From NCBI GenBank assembly GCA_025964675.1, contig JAOPYI010000294.1:1-35153 (forward strand): DNA of 35,153 bases. The letters are read 5' to 3'. Made by a program: the position numbers and the translations under genes. Below are positions 5,422-31,538 of the stretch, one piece after another. The number at the start of each line of letters is the position of its first letter. Within the stretch, counting starts at the first letter, position 1. Origin of the DNA: Sphaerisporangium sp. (GTDB taxonomy: Bacteria; Actinomycetota; Actinomycetes; Streptosporangiales; Streptosporangiaceae). Under the pieces are notes generated by a model. It saw only the letters and a program-made list of their open reading frames with translations. It did not search any database and had not been told where the DNA came from.

Positions 5422-7212
5422 GTGCCCCAACTGCGTATAGCCCTCGCCCAGACCAACCCCACGGTGGGCGACCTGTCGGCGAACGCCGACAAGCTCGTCG
5501 AGTGGACCCGCCGCGCCGCCGGCCGAGGGGCGCACCTGGTCGTGTTCACCGAGATGTTCCTGACCGGATATCCCGTCGAAGACCTGGTCCTTCGCACATC
5601 GTTCGTCGACGCCTCCATCGCGACGCTCGCGGCCACGGCCGCGCGGCTGGCCGACGAGGGCCTGGGCGAGATCCCCGTGGTCGTGGGGTACGTCGACCGC
5701 TCCGGGGTCGCGCCCCGCGCCGGGCAGCCGAAGGGCGCGCCGCTGGATGCCGCCGCGCTGATCCACCATGGCCGCGTGGTCACCCGCACCGCCAAGCACC
5801 ACCTGCCCAACTACGGCGTCTTCGACGAATACCGCTACTTCATCCGGGGAGACCGGCTGCCGATCTTTCGCCTCCACGGCGTCGACGTGGCCATCGCCGT
5901 CTGCGAGGACCTCTGGCAGGACGGCGGCCCGGTCTCGGCCGTCGCCGAGGCGGGCGCGGGCCTGCTGGTGGTGCCCAACGCCTCGCCGTACGAGCGCGAG
6001 AAGGACGACGTGCGGCTGGAGCTGTGCGCGAAGCGCGCGCGTGAGGCCGGGTGCGTCCTCGCCTACGCCAACCAGGTCGGCGGCCAGGACGAGCTGATCT
6101 TCGACGGCGACTCCATCGTGGTGGGCGCCGGGGGCGAGCTGATCGCGCGGGCGGGCCAGTTCCGCGAGGAGCTCTTGGTCACCGACCTGGAGCTGCCGCT
6201 CGCAGACGCGGAGGCCCGAGCCGGGTCCTTCCCCGTGGACGCCCGAGACGGCACCACGATCACCGTGGAGCGGCTGGAGCTGTCCGCCGATCCGCTCCCG
6301 GCCTACGCTCCCGAGCAGCCGACCGTCGCCCCGCGCCTCGACGACCTCGAGGAGGTCTATTCGGCGCTGGTCCTCGGCGTGCGCGACTACTTCACGAAGA
6401 ACGGTTTCCAGTCGGTCATCCTCGGCCTGTCGGGAGGCATCGACTCGGCGCTGACCGCCACCATCGCCGCCGACGCCGTCGGTCCCGACCGGGTCCACGT
6501 CGTCCTGATGCCCTCGCGCCACTCCTCCGACCACTCGGTGGGCGACGCGCGCGATCTCGTCGAGCGGCAGGGCGCCCACTCGCGGGTGGTCCCCATCGAG
6601 GGCATCGTCGACGCCTTCGAGAAGGAGGTCGACCTGCACGGCCTCGCCGCGGAGAACCTCCAGGCACGCGTGCGCGGCATGCTGCTCATGGGGCTGTCGA
6701 ACGAACATGGCCACCTGGTGCTGACCACGGGTAACAAGAGCGAGCTGGCCACGGGCTACTCCACGCTCTACGGCGACTCAGCGGGCGGCTTCGCACCCAT
6801 CAAGGACGTCCTGAAGACCACGGTGTGGCAGCTCTCCACCTGGCGCAACGCTCAGGCCGGCCGCGAGGGCGACCTGCTGCACCACTTCGCCGTGCCGCCC
6901 ATCCCGGAGAACTCCATCATCAAGGAGCCGAGCGCCGAGCTGCGTCCCGGCCAGCGGGACACCGACTCGCTCCCGCCTTACGACGTGCTCGACCGGCTGC
7001 TCGCCGATTACGTCGAGCACGACATGGGCAAGGGAGAGCTCGTCGCGGCCGGGCACGACGCGGAGCTGGTCGCGCGGGTGATCCGCCTCGTCGACCTGGC
7101 GGAGTACAAGCGCCGGCAGTATCCCCCGGGCCCGAAGATCACCCCGAAGAACTTCGGCCGCGACCGGCGTCTGCCGATCACCAACCGCTGGCGCGAGACT
7201 CCGGCCAGCTGA
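5422..7212 (+). CDS. nadE: Glutamine-dependent NAD(+) synthetase
   Basis: Last step of NAD synthesis: deamido-NAD + ATP + glutamine give NAD; cytoplasmic. 596 aa in two domains. The N-terminal nitrilase-type glutaminase (1 to ~270) shows the triad Glu44 (VVFTEMFLTGYP), Lys125 (AKHHLPNYGVFDEYRYF) and Cys161 (VAVCEDLW region). The C-terminal synthetase (from ~310) shows the pyrophosphatase P-loop SGGIDS at 337-342, then TTGNKSELATGY and the C-terminal KRRQYPPGPKITPKNFGRDRR. The length fits the shorter two-domain form rather than the ~680-residue mycobacterial form. Start: GTG at 5422 giving (M)PQLRIALAQTNPTVGD, with GGTGGAG directly upstream. Larger upstream starts would add non-conserved sequence. 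Convergent with a tetR gene across a strong terminator. Confidence 0.96.
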   Translation: MPQLRIALAQTNPTVGDLSANADKLVEWTRRAAGRGAHLVVFTEMFLTGYPVEDLVLRTSFVDASIATLAATAARLADEGLGEIPVVVGYVDRSGVAPRAGQPKGAPLDAAALIHHGRVVTRTAKHHLPNYGVFDEYRYFIRGDRLPIFRLHGVDVAIAVCEDLWQDGGPVSAVAEAGAGLLVVPNASPYEREKDDVRLELCAKRAREAGCVLAYANQVGGQDELIFDGDSIVVGAGGELIARAGQFREELLVTDLELPLADAEARAGSFPVDARDGTTITVERLELSADPLPAYAPEQPTVAPRLDDLEEVYSALVLGVRDYFTKNGFQSVILGLSGGIDSALTATIAADAVGPDRVHVVLMPSRHSSDHSVGDARDLVERQGAHSRVVPIEGIVDAFEKEVDLHGLAAENLQARVRGMLLMGLSNEHGHLVLTTGNKSELATGYSTLYGDSAGGFAPIKDVLKTTVWQLSTWRNAQAGREGDLLHHFAVPPIPENSIIKEPSAELRPGQRDTDSLPPYDVLDRLLADYVEHDMGKGELVAAGHDAELVARVIRLVDLAEYKRRQYPPGPKITPKNFGRDRRLPITNRWRETPAS

Positions 7213-25760: not shown

Positions 25761-27749
25761 CTATTCCCGGGTGCTCCTGTCGAGCCTGGAAAGGTAGTCG
25801 TTGTAGGCGTCCAGCTCGGCGTCACCGGTGCCGCCTTGCCTCGCGGCACGGGCGTCGGCGCGCCGGTCGGCCCGCTCGGCGGTACGGTTCTCGGCGCGAT
25901 ACCACTGGAAGGCCAGCGCGAGCAGCACGATGAGCGTCGGGATCTCCCCGAACGCCCAGGCGATGGCCCCGCCGGTGCTCTGGTCGGAGAGCGCGGAGGC
26001 TCCCCAGGTGCGGCCGAGCTGGTCGTACCAGTCGGCGGCGAGGACCGTGCCCATGTTCATCAGCGCGATCCCGAAGAACGCGTGGAACGGCATCGTGACG
26101 AAGAGCAGCAGCAACCGCCCGAAGTACGGCAACTTGGTCGGCGCAGGGTCGATCCCGATGATCACCCAGAAGAAGAGGCAGCCGCTGAGCAGGAAGTGGA
26201 GGGTCATCGCGATGTGCCCGAGGTGCTCCTGCATGGCCGAGGCGAAGAGCGGCGTGAAGTAGAGGGCGTACGTCGAGACGATGAAGATGGCCGTGGCGAT
26301 GGCCGGGTGGGTGACGACCTTGGTGACCCTGCTGTGCAGGATCGTCGTGATCCACTCGCGCGGGCCGCGGTCCCCGCGCCGTGCGGCGGGCTTCAGCGCC
26401 CGCAGGGCGAGGGTCACAGGGGCGCCCAGCACGAGGAAGATCGGCACGAGCATCGACAGCACCATGTGCTCGGCCATGTGCACGCTGAACAGCACGGGGG
26501 CGTAGCGCGCCACGCCGCTCTGCGTGACGAGGACGAGCAGCAGCACGCCGATGCCCCAGCTGATCGTGCGTCCCATCGGCCAGCGGTCTCCGCGGCGCGC
26601 CAGCCGTACGGCTCCCGCACCGTAGAGACCGGCCAGCAGGGCCGCCAGCACCGCGAAGAACAGGTCGAACCACCACAGCGAGACAAGAGTCGCGAGGGAG
26701 ATCGGCGGCGGGATCAGGTAGCCCAGCAGCTCGAAGGCGCGGTCCACCGGCAGGTCGAGCGGCGGCGGGGCCGTACGCGAGAGCGCGACGGCGAGGCCGA
26801 CCGTCACCAGCATGATCAGGCCCTCGACCCCGGCGAGCCTCGTGAAGGCGCCCGGCCGCCCGGCGGACAGGGCGGGCAGGGTGCGGCCGCGGTGCCACCA
26901 GCCGATCACTCCGAGGCCGGCGAACGCGGTGACCTTGGCGAGGATGATCAGCCCGTAGGAGCTGGTGATGAGGTCCTGGACCGCCGTGAGCCGGGAGAGC
27001 GCGCTGAACAGGCCGGACACGCCGGCCCCGGCGAAGCACCAGAGCGCCATGCGGGAGAACCGGTGCGCCGCGAGGTCGAGGTTGGGCTCCCCGCGCAGGG
27101 CGTGAACGCACAGCAGCAGGAGCCCGCCGACCCACAGCGACAGCACGAGCAGGTGCAGCGCGACGCTGGTCGTCGCGAGGCCGTGGTTGGGCGCCGAGGA
27201 GGAGTGGCCGGTGAGCGCCGGGGGCATCAGCGTGGCAAGCGCGAGGACGAGCAGGCCTCCGGAGGCGCCGACGGTGATCGCGCCGCGTGAGAACAGGGCG
27301 ATGGCCGTGCCGAACAGCACGACGAGGGTGAGGGCGATGCCTTGCGGCACCTGGCTGGCGTAGCTGGTCAGCTCGTTGCCGCCGATGACCTCGGCGACCG
27401 GCATGCCCAGGGTCTCCGACAGGCTGAAGACCAGGGTGGAGGCAGCGGCCGCCGCCCACGCCAGGCCCGTCCACGAGGCGGCCTTGACGTAGGCGAGAGC
27501 GGGCTTGCCGAGCAGGCCCTTGTCGCTCGGAAGCAGCGCGGTGGCGAGGAGCAGCAGCCCCACGGTGAGCACGCCCGCGACGTCCATGGACAGCTTGGAC
27601 ACCGGCAGCGCCCAGCGGGTCAGCGTGCCCTCGTCGGGGAGGCCGGGGATGATGCGCGGGGTCGCGGCGCCGCCCAGGACCATGGCGACGATCAGGCCGC
27701 CGATCGCCACGCAGGCGCCGGCCACGGCGAGACGGGAAGTTCTGTTCAC
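25761..27749 (-). CDS. Fused CopD/CtaG-type membrane protein (copper handling, cytochrome oxidase assembly)
   Basis: 662 aa, extremely hydrophobic, some 14-16 membrane segments. The N-terminal half carries a CopD-type domain (about 215-330: HRFSRMALWCFAGAGVSGLFSAL, YGLIILAKVTAFAGLGVIGWWHR). The C-terminal half is a caa3-type CtaG domain (about 420-640) with the conserved His motifs SVHMAEHMVL, HIAMTLHFLLSGCLFFW and MPFHAFFGIALM, then DQSTGGAIAWAFGEIPTLI. It ends in a charged cytoplasmic tail (ENRTAERADRRADA). It probably moves copper across the membrane for oxidase maturation (family knowledge). The GTG start overlaps the copC stop in GTGA, so the two are translationally coupled. Confidence 0.9.
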   Translation of the reverse strand: MNRTSRLAVAGACVAIGGLIVAMVLGGAATPRIIPGLPDEGTLTRWALPVSKLSMDVAGVLTVGLLLLATALLPSDKGLLGKPALAYVKAASWTGLAWAAAAASTLVFSLSETLGMPVAEVIGGNELTSYASQVPQGIALTLVVLFGTAIALFSRGAITVGASGGLLVLALATLMPPALTGHSSSAPNHGLATTSVALHLLVLSLWVGGLLLLCVHALRGEPNLDLAAHRFSRMALWCFAGAGVSGLFSALSRLTAVQDLITSSYGLIILAKVTAFAGLGVIGWWHRGRTLPALSAGRPGAFTRLAGVEGLIMLVTVGLAVALSRTAPPPLDLPVDRAFELLGYLIPPPISLATLVSLWWFDLFFAVLAALLAGLYGAGAVRLARRGDRWPMGRTISWGIGVLLLVLVTQSGVARYAPVLFSVHMAEHMVLSMLVPIFLVLGAPVTLALRALKPAARRGDRGPREWITTILHSRVTKVVTHPAIATAIFIVSTYALYFTPLFASAMQEHLGHIAMTLHFLLSGCLFFWVIIGIDPAPTKLPYFGRLLLLFVTMPFHAFFGIALMNMGTVLAADWYDQLGRTWGASALSDQSTGGAIAWAFGEIPTLIVLLALAFQWYRAENRTAERADRRADARAARQGGTGDAELDAYNDYLSRLDRSTRE

Positions 27750-28321
27750 GACTTCTTCCGCATGCTGATGGCCAGGCCTATGCCGATGCCGGCGATGCCG
27801 AAGACGACGATCCACGCCCAGGCGGGGATGCCGCCCTGCTTCCGCTCCTGTGAGGCGGGGGTGGCGTCCACCGGGGTCGGCGTGAAGGCGGGCGGCGAGC
27901 TTGCGGCGGCCGTGCTCGCCTGCGGCGAGGGCGAGGCGGACGGGCTGCTCTGCTGCGGGGCCTTCACCGTGAAGGGGATCTCGCCCTCGACGGGGTGCCC
28001 GTCGTCGGAGACCACCCGCCAGGCGATCGTGTACTTCCCTGAGGGGAGGGCGCCGGAGACCTTCTGCGTCACCGTCGGCCCGTCCAGCTTTGGCTTGCCG
28101 TCGTGGTAGTCATGACCACCGGCGTCACGCACCAGCACCACCGGGAACCGCACGCCCTCGTTGAACGTCAGCGTCACCGAGTCGAGGCGCTCGACGGTGG
28201 CCCCCTTCTTGGGGTCGCTGGTCTTCAGCGTCGTGTGGGCCAGGGCGGGAGACGCGAGAGCCGTGCCGAGCACGACGGCGACGACGAACGCGAGCGCGGC
28301 GGCAAGCGGGGAAGTCCTCAT
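27746..28321 (-). CDS. copC: CopC-domain copper-binding protein, membrane-anchored
   Basis: 191 aa. The Sec signal peptide is cleaved after ALA, leaving an N-terminal His (HTTLKTSDPKKGATV), which in CopC is a Cu(II) ligand; the second conserved His is in VVSDDGHPVEG. The CopC beta-sandwich spans about 29-125 (VTLTFNEGVRFPVVLV, GKYTIAWRVVSDDGHPVEGEIPFTV). A Ser/Pro/Ala-rich linker (about 126-160) follows and a C-terminal membrane helix (AWAWIVVFGIAGIGIGLAIS) ending RKKS keeps it on the outer face of the membrane. ATG preceded by AGGGGG. It is first in a two-gene operon with the CopD/CtaG fusion, to which it probably hands copper. Confidence 0.93.
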   Translation of the reverse strand: MRTSPLAAALAFVVAVVLGTALASPALAHTTLKTSDPKKGATVERLDSVTLTFNEGVRFPVVLVRDAGGHDYHDGKPKLDGPTVTQKVSGALPSGKYTIAWRVVSDDGHPVEGEIPFTVKAPQQSSPSASPSPQASTAAASSPPAFTPTPVDATPASQERKQGGIPAWAWIVVFGIAGIGIGLAISMRKKS

Positions 28322-28431: not shown

Positions 28432-29724
28432 TCAGAGGCCGGCGCAGGCGAGAGCCCGGTGGTAGGCGGTCACGCTGGCCTCACCGTCGTCGAGCTGCTC
28501 CAGCGCCGTGGCCGCGGTGAGCCACCCCTCGGCCGCCTTGCGTGAGACCGGCGAGTGCCCGAGCGTCACCTCGACCGCCGCCAGCGCCGCCGCGGCCTCG
28601 TCGCTCTCGTCGAGCAGGAGCAGGGCGTTCCCGAGGACGAGCTGAGCCTCGACAAGGAGCCCGGGAGTGCGCTCGTCGAGCATGTCCCTGCCCCTGCGGG
28701 CGTACTCGGCGGCCTTCGCGGCGTTGCCGAGGGAGACCTCGACCATGGCGAGCTGGACGGCGCCGCGCGCCATGTCGACCGTGCCGGCCGAGGACTCGGC
28801 CAGCTCGCGCTCGCCTCTCAGCATCAGGTCACGGCAGGCGGCGGCCTCCGAAGGCCGTACGCGGAGAAGCAGCAGGGCGTACGCCATGCGGAGCCTGGCG
28901 AGGTTGCGGGGCTCGCCGTTCTCGGACTGGACGGCCAGCGCGCGCTCGGCGAGGGCGAGCGCCTCCTCGCCTCGGCCGGTGAGTTCGGCCACGACGGCGG
29001 CGTTCCAGCAGGCCGCCACGGTGGAGCGTGGCGTGCCCAGCATCTCGGCCGCCGCCAGCAGCTCCACGGCGAACTGGCGGGCGCGCAGCAGGTCGCCACG
29101 CACGATGTAAGCGGCGAGGAGGGTCGCGCCCAGCTCGACGAGGTCGTCGTTCCAGGCGGGGCGGCCGGCTCCGAGGATGGCGTCCTCGCCGACGCTCACG
29201 GCGGCGGCCAGGTCGCCGCGCTCGCGGTGACACCGGGACAGGGCGACCGTGACCGCCACGACGCGCTCGGAGGTCACCGTGTCGCTTCCGGACTCACGCA
29301 ACCGGGTCAGGACGGTGATCGCCTCGTCGAGGTCGCCGCACGCCTCGCTGGCCAGGGCGTAGCCGTACTCGGCCTGCTGCCTGAGCGAGGCCAGCCCGGC
29401 CAGGCTGCCGTCGTCGAGGAGCTCGGCGTAGCGGCGGCGAGCCTCGGCGACCTCCCCGTTGTCAAGGGCGAGCCTCGCATAACCGAGGCCCAATTCAAGG
29501 TCCTGCATCTGCTCGGCGGTGACCCCGTTGATCAGGTACGTTAGGGAGCACTCAAGCTTCGCGGCCAGCAGTTCCAGCACAGCTGCCGTCGGCGTTCGCT
29601 TGCCGCTCTCGATAAGTGATACATAACTATCCGAGAGTTCAGGATGGGCCAGTTGCGCTTGGGAAAGGCCGCGCTGGCGGCGGATCGTCTTGATTCGCTG
29701 GCCTATAAGATCTTGACCGCTCAC
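28432..29724 (-). CDS. XRE-HTH regulator with C-terminal TPR array (RRNPP-like architecture)
   Basis: 430 aa. The N-terminal XRE HTH (about 6-62) reads IGQRIKTIRRQRGLSQAQLA, LSDSYVSLIESGKRTPTAAV, and LLAAKLECSLTYLINGV. The rest (about 68-425) is all helical with TPR periodicity: LGYARLALDNGEVAEARRRY, ALASEACGDLDEAITVLTRL, AVVAELTGRGEEALALAERAL, MVEVSLGNAAKAAEYARRGR. By length there are about nine repeats. In Firmicutes this layout (PlcR, PrgX, Rgg-like, NprR) binds small exported-and-reimported peptides. GTG chosen because AAGGGG lies five bases upstream (MCRGLHLQG before it is non-conserved). It is divergent from a 45-codon gene for an exported peptide across 54 bp. Direct peptide control is my inference; a plain TPR regulator of the NsdA kind is the alternative. 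Confidence 0.88.
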   Translation of the reverse strand: MSGQDLIGQRIKTIRRQRGLSQAQLAHPELSDSYVSLIESGKRTPTAAVLELLAAKLECSLTYLINGVTAEQMQDLELGLGYARLALDNGEVAEARRRYAELLDDGSLAGLASLRQQAEYGYALASEACGDLDEAITVLTRLRESGSDTVTSERVVAVTVALSRCHRERGDLAAAVSVGEDAILGAGRPAWNDDLVELGATLLAAYIVRGDLLRARQFAVELLAAAEMLGTPRSTVAACWNAAVVAELTGRGEEALALAERALAVQSENGEPRNLARLRMAYALLLLRVRPSEAAACRDLMLRGERELAESSAGTVDMARGAVQLAMVEVSLGNAAKAAEYARRGRDMLDERTPGLLVEAQLVLGNALLLLDESDEAAAALAAVEVTLGHSPVSRKAAEGWLTAATALEQLDDGEASVTAYHRALACAGL

Positions 29725-29749
29725 CGGCACCCCTTGAAGATGTAATCCC

Positions 29750-29764
29750 CGACACACTGCGACA
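29750..29764. promoter_or_regulatory. CGACA direct repeat in the regulator-peptide interval
   Basis: CGACA-n5-CGACA, with the repeats exactly 10 bp (one helical turn) apart, in the middle of the 54-bp interval between the TPR regulator and the peptide gene. It is a natural position for a regulator contact that could control both genes. Function is inferred. Confidence 0.35.
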
Positions 29765-29778
29765 GATGGGAGTCAATC

Positions 29779-29916
29779 ATGCGTCGCCGCCGCCTCGCAC
29801 TTTGTGCCCTAGTTATTTCACTCTCGGCCACCTTGGGCCTCATGGGCAATGCTACGACCGCCGCCGCTGCGGACACGCCTGCACCAAGCGTCCGCGCCGA
29901 CTTCCTGTGCTGCTGA
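29779..29916 (+). CDS. Small exported peptide precursor (45 aa), candidate signalling peptide
   Basis: Too short for usual gene calls but well supported: ATG six bases after GGGAG (29768-29772), 45 codons, and it fills the gap between two real genes. N-region MRRRR, hydrophobic core LALCALVISLSATLGLMG, then NATTAAAA giving AxA-type signal peptidase sites. The predicted mature part is about 14 residues, DTPAPSVRADFLCC, ending in a vicinal Cys pair. There is no lipobox. Codons are less GC-biased at the third position (CTT, TGT, CTA, GTT, ATT, TCA) than in neighbouring genes. It is divergent from the TPR regulator and ends 8 bp from the convergent pucR stop. Suggested role: pheromone-like ligand of that regulator, or a secreted disulfide/modified peptide. 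I do not recognise it from a known family. Confidence 0.7.
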   Translation: MRRRRLALCALVISLSATLGLMGNATTAAAADTPAPSVRADFLCC

Positions 29917-29924
29917 TCCATCAC

Positions 29925-31538
29925 TCAGCTCGCACGTAACGCCAGGAAAAGATCCACCCTGTCCGCCATCGTGGACAGGTCTCGTCCGGTCAGCTCTTCG
30001 ATCCGCCGGATGCGGTATCGAACGGTGTTCACATGCACGTGCAGTCGCTCCGCGCAGATGTTCCACGACCCCCCGCAGTCGAGGAACGTTCCCACTGTGC
30101 GGACCAACTCCGACTGGTGACGCCGGTCGTAGTCGAAGAGCGGAGCCAAGATCCGGTCCGCGAAGGACCGTCGCACGTCGTCGGGGACGGTGGCCAGCAA
30201 CAAACCGTGAGTGTATATCTCATCGCTGGTCACCACTCCTCCGCCGCGTGCCTCCGCAAGGCGCCGTGCGTGGCCCGCCTCCTCGGCGCCGCCACGGATG
30301 GCTCCGGGACCGGTGAGACCGCCACTGACGCCGACTGACACCGTCGTCCTCAGAAGGGTGGCCTGGAGCGTCGCCACCCGTTCCCCCAGCAGTGCCTGAA
30401 GCGTTTGCACACTACGCTGCACTTGCGTTTGACCTTGCACATGCACGTTACGCCGCATTGGCGCTCCGGTCCAGGTTTCGCCGGACTCTTCCAAGGGCGT
30501 TCGTAGCGTTCGCAGTGGCACCAGCGCGACCGCTCCATCCGCCCCGGCGGCGGCCACCACCCGGCGGTCCAGCAGTTCCTCGATCACCTGGCCGCCCAGC
30601 ACGGCGGGGTCGGGCCCGTCGGTGGCGCCGCGACGTGCGACCGTCGCCATGACCACCGCGTAGGGCTCCGCGGCGTCGATCCCGCAGGTGCGCAGCCGCG
30701 CCGCGAGCTCGGCCGGGTCGGCTCCGCCGGAACAGGCGAGCGCGATCAGCTGCTCGGCGAGACGCCGTTCGACCCTGCGGCCCTCCTCGGTACGGCTGCG
30801 CGAGAGCGCGACGCAGGCCGCGAGCTCGAACCCGGTGTCCGCGTCGTCGATCAGGTCGGCGCCGCAGACCAGTGCCCAGCCGGCCGCCCGGTGCGCCCGG
30901 TCGACCCCGAAGAGCGTGAACGGCCCGCCGGAGGTGCGGGCCAGGTGGGGCAGCCGCGTGGCCGAAAGATACTCGCGCGCCAGCCGTACGGGAAGGTCTC
31001 CCTCGAGCCGTCCCGCGATGACCGTACCGGTCGAGGAGATCACCGCGGCGGCGATGCCCAGCTCCTCCGCCGTCAGGGCGAACAGCTCTTCCAGGCCCGC
31101 GCCCTCGGCGACGGCGGCGACGATACGGCGGTGCCTGCCGAGCGCGCCGCGCAGGTCGACGGCCCTGGCGCCCGCGAGGCGGCCCTCCACCAGCTCGCTC
31201 AGCGTGCGGAAGGAGATCTCGGTCGGCACGTCAAGCAGGGGGAGGTCGTGCTCGCGGCACGCCTCGACCACGTCGTCCGGCACGTGGCCGAGCCTTGCCC
31301 TGCCCGCGCCGAGCGCGGCCACCTTCGCCTTGGCCAGGGTCTCGACGAAGCGCCGGGAGTCTTCCGGGTCGCGGCGCCACATGAGCCCGGTAAGCACCAG
31401 CTCCCCGCCGGACAGGTAACGGCCCGGATCGGGCAGGTCGGTGATGTGCACGCCGGTGAAGGGCCGGTCCATGTGCTCGCCGCCCGACAGCAGGGTGAGG
31501 CGGAGCTGGTCCATCGCGATGAGGTCACGTATCCGCAC
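29925..31538 (-). CDS. pucR: PucR family transcriptional regulator
   Basis: 537 aa. The N-terminal PucR sensor domain (about 1-125) has RIRDLIAMDQLRLTLLSGGE, ITDLPDPGRYLSGGELVLTG, and LPLLDVPTEISFRTLSELVE. A central GGDEF-like CdaR region (about 260-430) lacks cyclase motifs. The C-terminal PucR HTH (about 470-530) reads ELVRTVGTFLDCGGSWNICAERLHVHVNTVRYRIRRIEELTGRDL. Such regulators control purine (urate, allantoin) or amino-acid catabolism. The GTG start has no ribosome binding site but TAGCCT lies six bases before it, so the mRNA is likely leaderless. Divergent from a xanthine-dehydrogenase-type gene, its probable target; the effector is likely a purine pathway intermediate (inference). Confidence 0.92.
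   Translation of the reverse strand: MRIRDLIAMDQLRLTLLSGGEHMDRPFTGVHITDLPDPGRYLSGGELVLTGLMWRRDPEDSRRFVETLAKAKVAALGAGRARLGHVPDDVVEACREHDLPLLDVPTEISFRTLSELVEGRLAGARAVDLRGALGRHRRIVAAVAEGAGLEELFALTAEELGIAAAVISSTGTVIAGRLEGDLPVRLAREYLSATRLPHLARTSGGPFTLFGVDRAHRAAGWALVCGADLIDDADTGFELAACVALSRSRTEEGRRVERRLAEQLIALACSGGADPAELAARLRTCGIDAAEPYAVVMATVARRGATDGPDPAVLGGQVIEELLDRRVVAAAGADGAVALVPLRTLRTPLEESGETWTGAPMRRNVHVQGQTQVQRSVQTLQALLGERVATLQATLLRTTVSVGVSGGLTGPGAIRGGAEEAGHARRLAEARGGGVVTSDEIYTHGLLLATVPDDVRRSFADRILAPLFDYDRRHQSELVRTVGTFLDCGGSWNICAERLHVHVNTVRYRIRRIEELTGRDLSTMADRVDLFLALRAS

Follow-up and report, generated by a model that had tools for sequence, protein, structure and literature searches.

Among the described systems, the closest is PlcR-PapR of the Bacillus cereus group, in which the gene for an HTH-TPR transcription factor lies beside that for a short exported precursor, and the signal consists of the precursor's C-terminal residues. 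NprR-NprX and Rap-Phr likewise rest on TPR receptors, for peptides that are exported and then taken up again (Rap has no HTH), and ComR-XIP and Rgg-SHP again join an HTH-TPR receptor to a tiny adjacent peptide gene. I know of no peptide of the RRNPP family that ends in Cys-Cys.

According to its own description, the RRNPP_detector study analyzed only complete Firmicutes genomes, and it calls the signals of Actinomycetota typically small molecules (PMC10075063). In the study of RRNPPA evolution, ComR-XIP and Rgg-SHP precursors are described as having escaped the signal-peptide predictors used, and its main text contains no word beginning with "actino" (PMC9765709). A 2026 review, in its accessible text, places RRNPP in Gram-positives and takes Firmicutes as examples (PMC13220807), and in the accessible text of a review on actinobacterial quorum sensing, TPR appears only within a table (PMC4748050). 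The A-factor/ArpA system and the other gamma-butyrolactone systems of Streptomyces do provide cell-cell signaling through an intracellular receptor in Actinomycetota, as that review recounts (PMC4748050), but the signal is a small molecule and no peptide is encoded.

The gene pair described here looks like undescribed actinobacterial peptide signaling. A search of the open-licence literature (subscription papers and preprints lying outside its scope) found no description of a regulator paired with a peptide ending in Cys-Cys (henceforth CC). I consider it probable that the two genes form a self-contained, RRNPP-like peptide-signaling cassette with a cytoplasmic receptor.

The Cassette in Sphaerisporangium

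The window, 35,153 nucleotides of contig JAOPYI010000294.1 from Sphaerisporangium sp., is the whole stretch of DNA that was analyzed. The initial annotation had pointed within it to an XRE-HTH/TPR regulator divergent from a 45-codon ORF over 54 bp, and this arrangement is confirmed. The details attributed to the small ORF (the spacing of GGGAG, the MRRRR start, the hydrophobic core, the AxA site, and a tail of about 14 residues) also proved accurate. The features are as follows.

25761–27815, minus strand: CopD/CtaG fusion gene, on the regulator's strand (Pfam)
27746–28321, minus strand: CopC-domain gene, 3' of the regulator and on its strand (Pfam); a neighbor that lies outside the cassette in other families
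28432–29724, minus strand: regulator gene, 430 aa, GTG start, XRE-HTH plus TPR (Pfam, AlphaFold2); putative transcription factor and peptide receptor
28444–29517, minus strand: nine TPR-like helix pairs, regulator residues 70–427, putative peptide groove (model, Pfam TPR)
29533–29694, minus strand: HTH_3 DNA-binding domain, regulator residues 11–64 (Pfam)
29725–29778, no strand: divergent intergenic region of 54 bp, both ribosome-binding sites inside (sequence); candidate shared promoter/operator
29768–29772, plus strand: GGGAG, the small ORF's ribosome-binding site, 6 nt ahead of the ATG
29779–29916, plus strand: small ORF, ATG start, 45 aa, putative pro-pheromone
29779–29871, plus strand: signal-peptide-like part, small-ORF residues 1–31 (MRRRR, hydrophobic core, AxA)
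29872–29913, plus strand: predicted mature peptide DTPAPSVRADFLCC, with CC at 29908–29913
29925–31538, minus strand: PucR-type regulator gene, convergent to the small ORF and separated from its end by 8 bp (Pfam)

The product of the small ORF is MRRRRLALCALVISLSATLGLMGNATTAAAADTPAPSVRADFLCC, with a 14-residue tail after AAAA; the cleavage site was placed by eye, and the precursors of relatives were judged by this study's own composition rules. Scans of the window locus for sigma-70-type promoters and for terminators came back empty, and no operator, palindrome included, was found in the window. In a distant family, 12 of the 20 loci aligned (L144, L146, L147, L172–L174, L176–L181) have a perfect palindrome of 12 bp, CTGTCATGACAG, across the start codon of the regulator; it is a possible operator.

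Structure of the Regulator

The AlphaFold2 model of the regulator, built from a 53-sequence alignment (mean pLDDT 90.9, pTM 0.81), consists of the HTH domain and nine helix pairs spanning residues 70–427. By Pfam and by the model, the protein has a TPR domain behind an N-terminal HTH, the architecture of most RRNPP receptor subfamilies. A profile search of the PDB returned PlcR as the first natural protein (E 4e-12, residues 5–190 against 4–189), below two designed TPR proteins, and also NprR (E 2e-8, residues 120–358, in the TPR part of NprR). By Foldseek, the PlcR-PapR-DNA complex was a weak match at rank 4 (TMq 0.30); PlcR scored a TMq of 0.30–0.38, a phage Rap with its pheromone about 0.53, and apo ComR 0.33, and eukaryotic and other TPR proteins, such as LGN, score alike. 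No RRNPP-specific Pfam or NCBIfam model matched at E 0.01. The cassette resembles RRNPP systems by anatomy, and descent of the regulator from the RRNPP family is likely.

The cassette shares with PlcR-PapR the HTH-TPR architecture and an adjoining short, probably exported precursor with a putative C-terminal signal, but it comes from another phylum, its regulator has nine helix pairs, and its peptide ends in CC. Export and re-import, as in NprR-NprX and Rap-Phr, are predicted here as well. The layout of ComR-XIP and Rgg-SHP is similar too, but the actinobacterial precursor has a classical-looking signal peptide.

The Small ORF in Close Relatives

Scanning bacterial genomes brought up 119 relatives, of which the best 80 (56–82% identity) were examined. 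The initial annotation had predicted a small signal-peptide ORF next to orthologous TPR regulators, and one is present at all 80 loci. In every case the best-scoring divergent small ORF has 40–58 codons, lies 47–63 bp from the regulator, and begins with a basic N-terminus and a hydrophobic core, so that the adjacent short precursor gene with a predicted secretion signal, as RRNPP systems have it, recurs throughout; at four of the loci the rule used recognized no ribosome-binding site. In 34 pairs of loci, pN/pS was 0.56 over the first 29 residues and 0.74 over the remainder, the latter resting on few synonymous sites (plain uncorrected counts with a fixed boundary; no locus in two pairs; one pair identical). 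The outcomes that had been named as counting against the prediction, absence of the ORF beside orthologous regulators, missing coding constraint, or a missing translation signal, were not seen: the ORF is conserved (80 of 80), pN/pS lies below one, and of translation signals the ribosome-binding site is in place.

The same features bear on whether the product leaves the cell. A hydrophobic core behind a basic N-terminus would also suit a membrane peptide, and export was predicted by eye; the small ORF could on these grounds encode a membrane microprotein or an unexported intracellular ligand, self-sensing or toxin-antitoxin-like. I think this quite improbable, since among relatives the alanine-rich AxA-like region and the small-residue linker are kept, while the part that follows varies more.

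The Invariant Cys-Cys and the Variable Core

Seventy of the 80 peptides end in Cys-Cys, and the other 10, all of one clade, end otherwise. Within the 70, the terminal CC has zero entropy and positions -3 to -10 have 3.1–3.9 bits. The initial annotation had proposed to check whether the last eight or so residues are conserved; as a sequence they are not. Only the final two are constant, and they follow a hypervariable core of six residues, with 63 distinct cores in the 70 peptides. Such a core fits strain- or species-specific pheromones. A further cysteine occurs within the last 16 residues in just one of the 70. The two cysteines are kept while their codons vary (TGCTGC 64, TGCTGT 4, TGTTGT 1, TGTTGC 1), which, along with recurrence at 80 of 80 loci, marks the ORF as more than a product of chance.

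The 10 exceptions end in PD (5), PG (2), AE (2), or PI (1), come from Streptosporangium, Planomonospora, and Planobispora, and have W at position -5 in eight cases; a record labeled Streptosporangium, L076, does have a CC end. Together with those of further loci, the regulators of these exceptions, the PD type, form one group on the regulator tree, with support of 1.0 and a single other regulator (L207_0) inside, and on this tree the loss of CC to a PD-type end is a single event. Because one clade swapped its CC and kept the cassette, I read the CC as a recognition anchor more than as a catalytic or metal-binding need. The conservation pattern supports a scheme in which the CC would anchor all the peptides alike, and strain or species specificity would come from the variable residues that precede it. 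The two cysteines may also form a redox-gated disulfide.

Specificity of the Pairing

In 2.2 million strand-bases of fetched DNA, I looked for small ORFs with a basic N-terminus, a hydrophobic core, and a ribosome-binding site. The 300-bp divergent windows held 170 of them, 144 with CC; elsewhere there were 26, 15 with CC. Thirteen of these 15 flank a regulator in another orientation, and the other two are the peptide of a next cassette cut by a contig end and the window's own peptide. The concentration of CC ORFs at regulators speaks against a chance ORF, within DNA that is mostly regulator flanks, includes some genomes twice, and offers no genome-wide background. A looser pattern picked up a single CC ORF lying within a regulator gene (L078).

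Twelve further regions of 4.6–14 kb around CC pairs each held a single CC ORF, located at the regulator (12 of 12). Another 12 regions comprised four with two CC ORFs, four with one, and four with none; in L249 the CC ORF lies 1.8 kb from the regulator.

The fetched flanks of 19 other regulators contained no CC ORF (0 of 19). Nine of these regulators are lower-scoring (L024, L027–L031, L203, L206, L241), four being best matches in genomes of the window's family and five being second matches, and ten come from other classes of the phylum (L231–L240). Larger stretches around L247, L250, L251, and L252 also had no CC ORF. Within the window's family, close homologues of the regulator in genera g56 and g60 (L134, L135, L136, and also L250 and L251) have no CC peptide in the flanks that were fetched and are possible orphan receptors. 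Second-match regulators such as G000:C84 share an ORF of 52–55 codons, membrane-type and with the motif KK.L...AFYL (L002 680, L031 688, L206 661, all plus strand), that lies about 0.7 kb upstream of them and on their strand.

Distribution in the Class and Phylum

At E 1e-20, the regulator finds matches in 27 of 60 genomes of relatives. The best matches in those 27 comprise 21 with a CC peptide, two of the PD type, and four, from the same family, without a peptide (G029, G030, G034, G036; 35–40% identity).

A profile of 26 regulators was then compared with 394 genomes of the class and matched 67 at E 1e-45; because the search scored few candidates per genome, its second matches are a lower bound. 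The best match was examined in 66 of the 67 (G413 being left out), and in 47 of them a signal-peptide-like ORF with exactly CC as its end adjoins the regulator, those of G100 and G130 failing the strict ribosome-site rule. The ORF is divergent in 38 cases, convergent in eight, and co-directional in one. The pairing with a short ORF, which the initial annotation proposed to check for constant divergence, extends well past the window's family, and its orientation can also be convergent. The remaining 19 best matches divide into two with CC plus one or two residues, seven of the PD type, eight with no adjacent peptide, and two cut by contig ends. Of these eight genomes, three (G085, G145, G400) carry a CC ORF next to a second regulator, and in G407 such an ORF is found some 1.8 kb off. 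The families of the class with CC pairs number 10 (f1, f11, f16, f21, f22, f27, f28, f29, f40, f41), with regulators down to about 37% identity. Within the order, matches were found in 86 of 150 genomes, and in a sample of the phylum in 11 of 346, the latter count including the window's genome.

Altogether, the fetched loci (leaving aside the window's own and most of L001–L021) provide 158 distinct regulators: 112 with a divergent CC peptide, 10 with a convergent one, 14 of the PD type, and 22 with none, some of these last being cut by contig ends or failing the strict rule. The peptides of 118 regulators end exactly in CC; four CC rows carry one or two residues more, two of them sharing one peptide.

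Sixteen plasmid records matched, of which six were examined (L213–L218). A CC peptide is present in the record of a Nonomuraea gerenzanensis plasmid; the other five, four from Streptomyces and one, at 45% identity, from Streptosporangium, lack an adjacent CC ORF. One of the Streptomyces plasmids (L218) encodes, at 5729–5884 on the plus strand and about 1.9 kb from a distant homologue of the regulator, a signal-peptide-like ORF ending in LPLCC, annotated as a hypothetical protein. One pattern scan of viral contigs gave no confirmed relative. An unverified phage record from human faeces (L212, MT836207.1) matches the regulator in part, at 36% over residues 7–245, and has no CC ORF.

Neighboring Genes and Variant Loci

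In the window's family, CopD/CtaG comes after the regulator in 76 of 80 loci, the other four ending early, and a crude gene caller placed CopC between the two in 32. Beyond the peptide lies PucR in 36 of the 80 loci (it is kept also in the G026 region of this family), a SARP-type activator in 24, and other genes elsewhere. In those 24 (L038, 2–2545, and 23 other loci), a gene of the SARP-type cluster (BTAD, NB-ARC), so labeled from one scanned member, is the nearest one called past the peptide and is on the peptide's strand.

Gene order bears on a reading of the small ORF as an attenuator. Cys-responsive attenuator leader ORFs are known in actinobacteria, and the Cys codons at the end of this ORF could similarly sense charged tRNA-Cys. 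But a leader would precede a regulated gene on its own strand, and in the window there is none, since the PucR-type gene beyond is convergent; by the crude caller, the nearest gene beyond the peptide is on the opposite strand in 45 of the 80 loci. Neither a signal peptide nor a link to one regulator family would be expected of a leader. I reject this reading, which is hardly credible with such a gene order.

The neighbors bear also on the idea that the peptide is an exported effector (an antimicrobial or a redox-active or metal-binding dithiol) whose gene the regulator controls while sensing something else. Vicinal cysteines are good ligands for metals and suit disulfide chemistry, the regulator precedes CopC and CopD in the window's family, and metal-transport genes lie near two distant cassettes, ZnuA at L219 (4688–5752) and Mntp at L225 (7947–8498). 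However, the 20 neighboring proteins scanned from 10 distant regions (15 matching Pfam families, five none) include no copper gene, which speaks against a copper-specific role as a general one. Besides ZnuA and Mntp, the families found include aminotransferase (three loci of one family), EamA, DEAD helicase, alanine dehydrogenase, and what I label an Era-like GTPase; no modification or transport gene common to different families was seen. Moreover, one clade dropped the CC and kept the cassette, and hypervariability of the tail would be surprising in a metal chelator. An exported effector seems to me unlikely, and signaling the preferable reading.

Since gene order and neighbors differ between families, the conserved unit is the two genes. 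That unit is sometimes doubled or extended. Two Spongiactinospora loci (in the group of L040, L107, and L109) have two full tandem cassettes with different CC peptides; L109 shows a full cassette plus the next one's peptide, the contig ending before the second regulator, and at L111 a second regulator has no peptide of its own. One distant family offers a further variant: at four of 20 loci there, a single regulator stands between a divergent and a convergent CC peptide (L242 at 7641 and 9389; L243 at 7468 and 9182; L244 at 4085 and 2368; L245 at 4214 and 2493). The two peptides have similar ends, for example GDFCC and SDFCC (PGDFCC, GGSDFCC), and no second regulator was found within the 12–13 kb fetched.

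Tests for Covariation of Regulator and Peptide

Whether receptor and peptide change together was assessed by partial Mantel correlations with permutation tests, taking the distance between CopD proteins as a proxy for that between species. Given CopD, distances between peptide cores correlate with those between TPR domains (r 0.40 in 76 loci, 0.41 in the 66 CC loci, p 0.001), and adding HTH and signal-part distances leaves 0.37 and 0.35. The core against the HTH, which hardly varies, gives r 0.04 (p 0.07), and the core against CopD given TPR gives -0.01 and -0.04. The signal part of the precursor also correlates with TPR, with partial r of 0.29 (76 loci) and 0.42 (66 CC loci), and because it tracks TPR as strongly in the CC loci as the core does, linkage may explain much of the covariation. 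Per-position covariation is weak: the 25 top positions fall 14 in A helices, three in B helices, and eight in loops, against a background over all variable positions of 118, 106, and 57.

The clade that lost CC provides another comparison. Its regulators have changed at eight positions where 82 close CC regulators are fixed to 85% or more, and six of the eight (T201, A237, N241, N274, A319, L364) are in the first helices of TPR pairs, which in TPR proteins line the groove; here the concave face is inferred from helix order. As the switch from CC happened once, these changes remain suggestive. Of 31 distant CC regulators, 28 keep N241 and 26 keep T201; among the 22 regulators without a peptide, the figures are 13 and 12. 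L022 and L023 have CC peptides and yet E241. At L207, the regulator beside a peptide ending in CCYE has T201, A237, W240, and N241, and the neighboring regulator keeps only A237.

Proposed Mechanism and Significance

From the gene pair, signaling is the best-supported inference. Sec would export the 45-residue precursor, and cleavage behind AxA would set free either some 14 residues or a shorter stretch of the C-terminus. This product would re-enter the cell, probably via an oligopeptide permease; the genome encodes 17 oligopeptide-binding (SBP_bac_5) proteins, which makes re-import possible. Inside, it would bind the concave TPR face of the adjacent regulator, and the bound regulator would act differently at the 54-bp region and at further targets. 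Signaling of this kind would presumably depend on cell density.

Extended to the class, the evidence inclines me, with some reserve, toward a family of peptide pheromones with an invariant CC (as dithiol, disulfide, or modified), read by TPR receptors. Its pherotype code would be hypervariable, its loci would include tandem and two-peptide forms, and in one clade the CC would have been swapped for another end. The invariant CC poses a chemical question: whether the cysteines are free thiols, a vicinal disulfide, or modified.

Actinobacteria make many antibiotics, the genes for which are often silent. A short encoded pheromone with a recognizable tail could be synthesized for each strain from its genome and used as a trial elicitor. 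If the reading is true, the cassette would represent a genetically encoded signaling language among bacteria whose signals are held to be chiefly small molecules.
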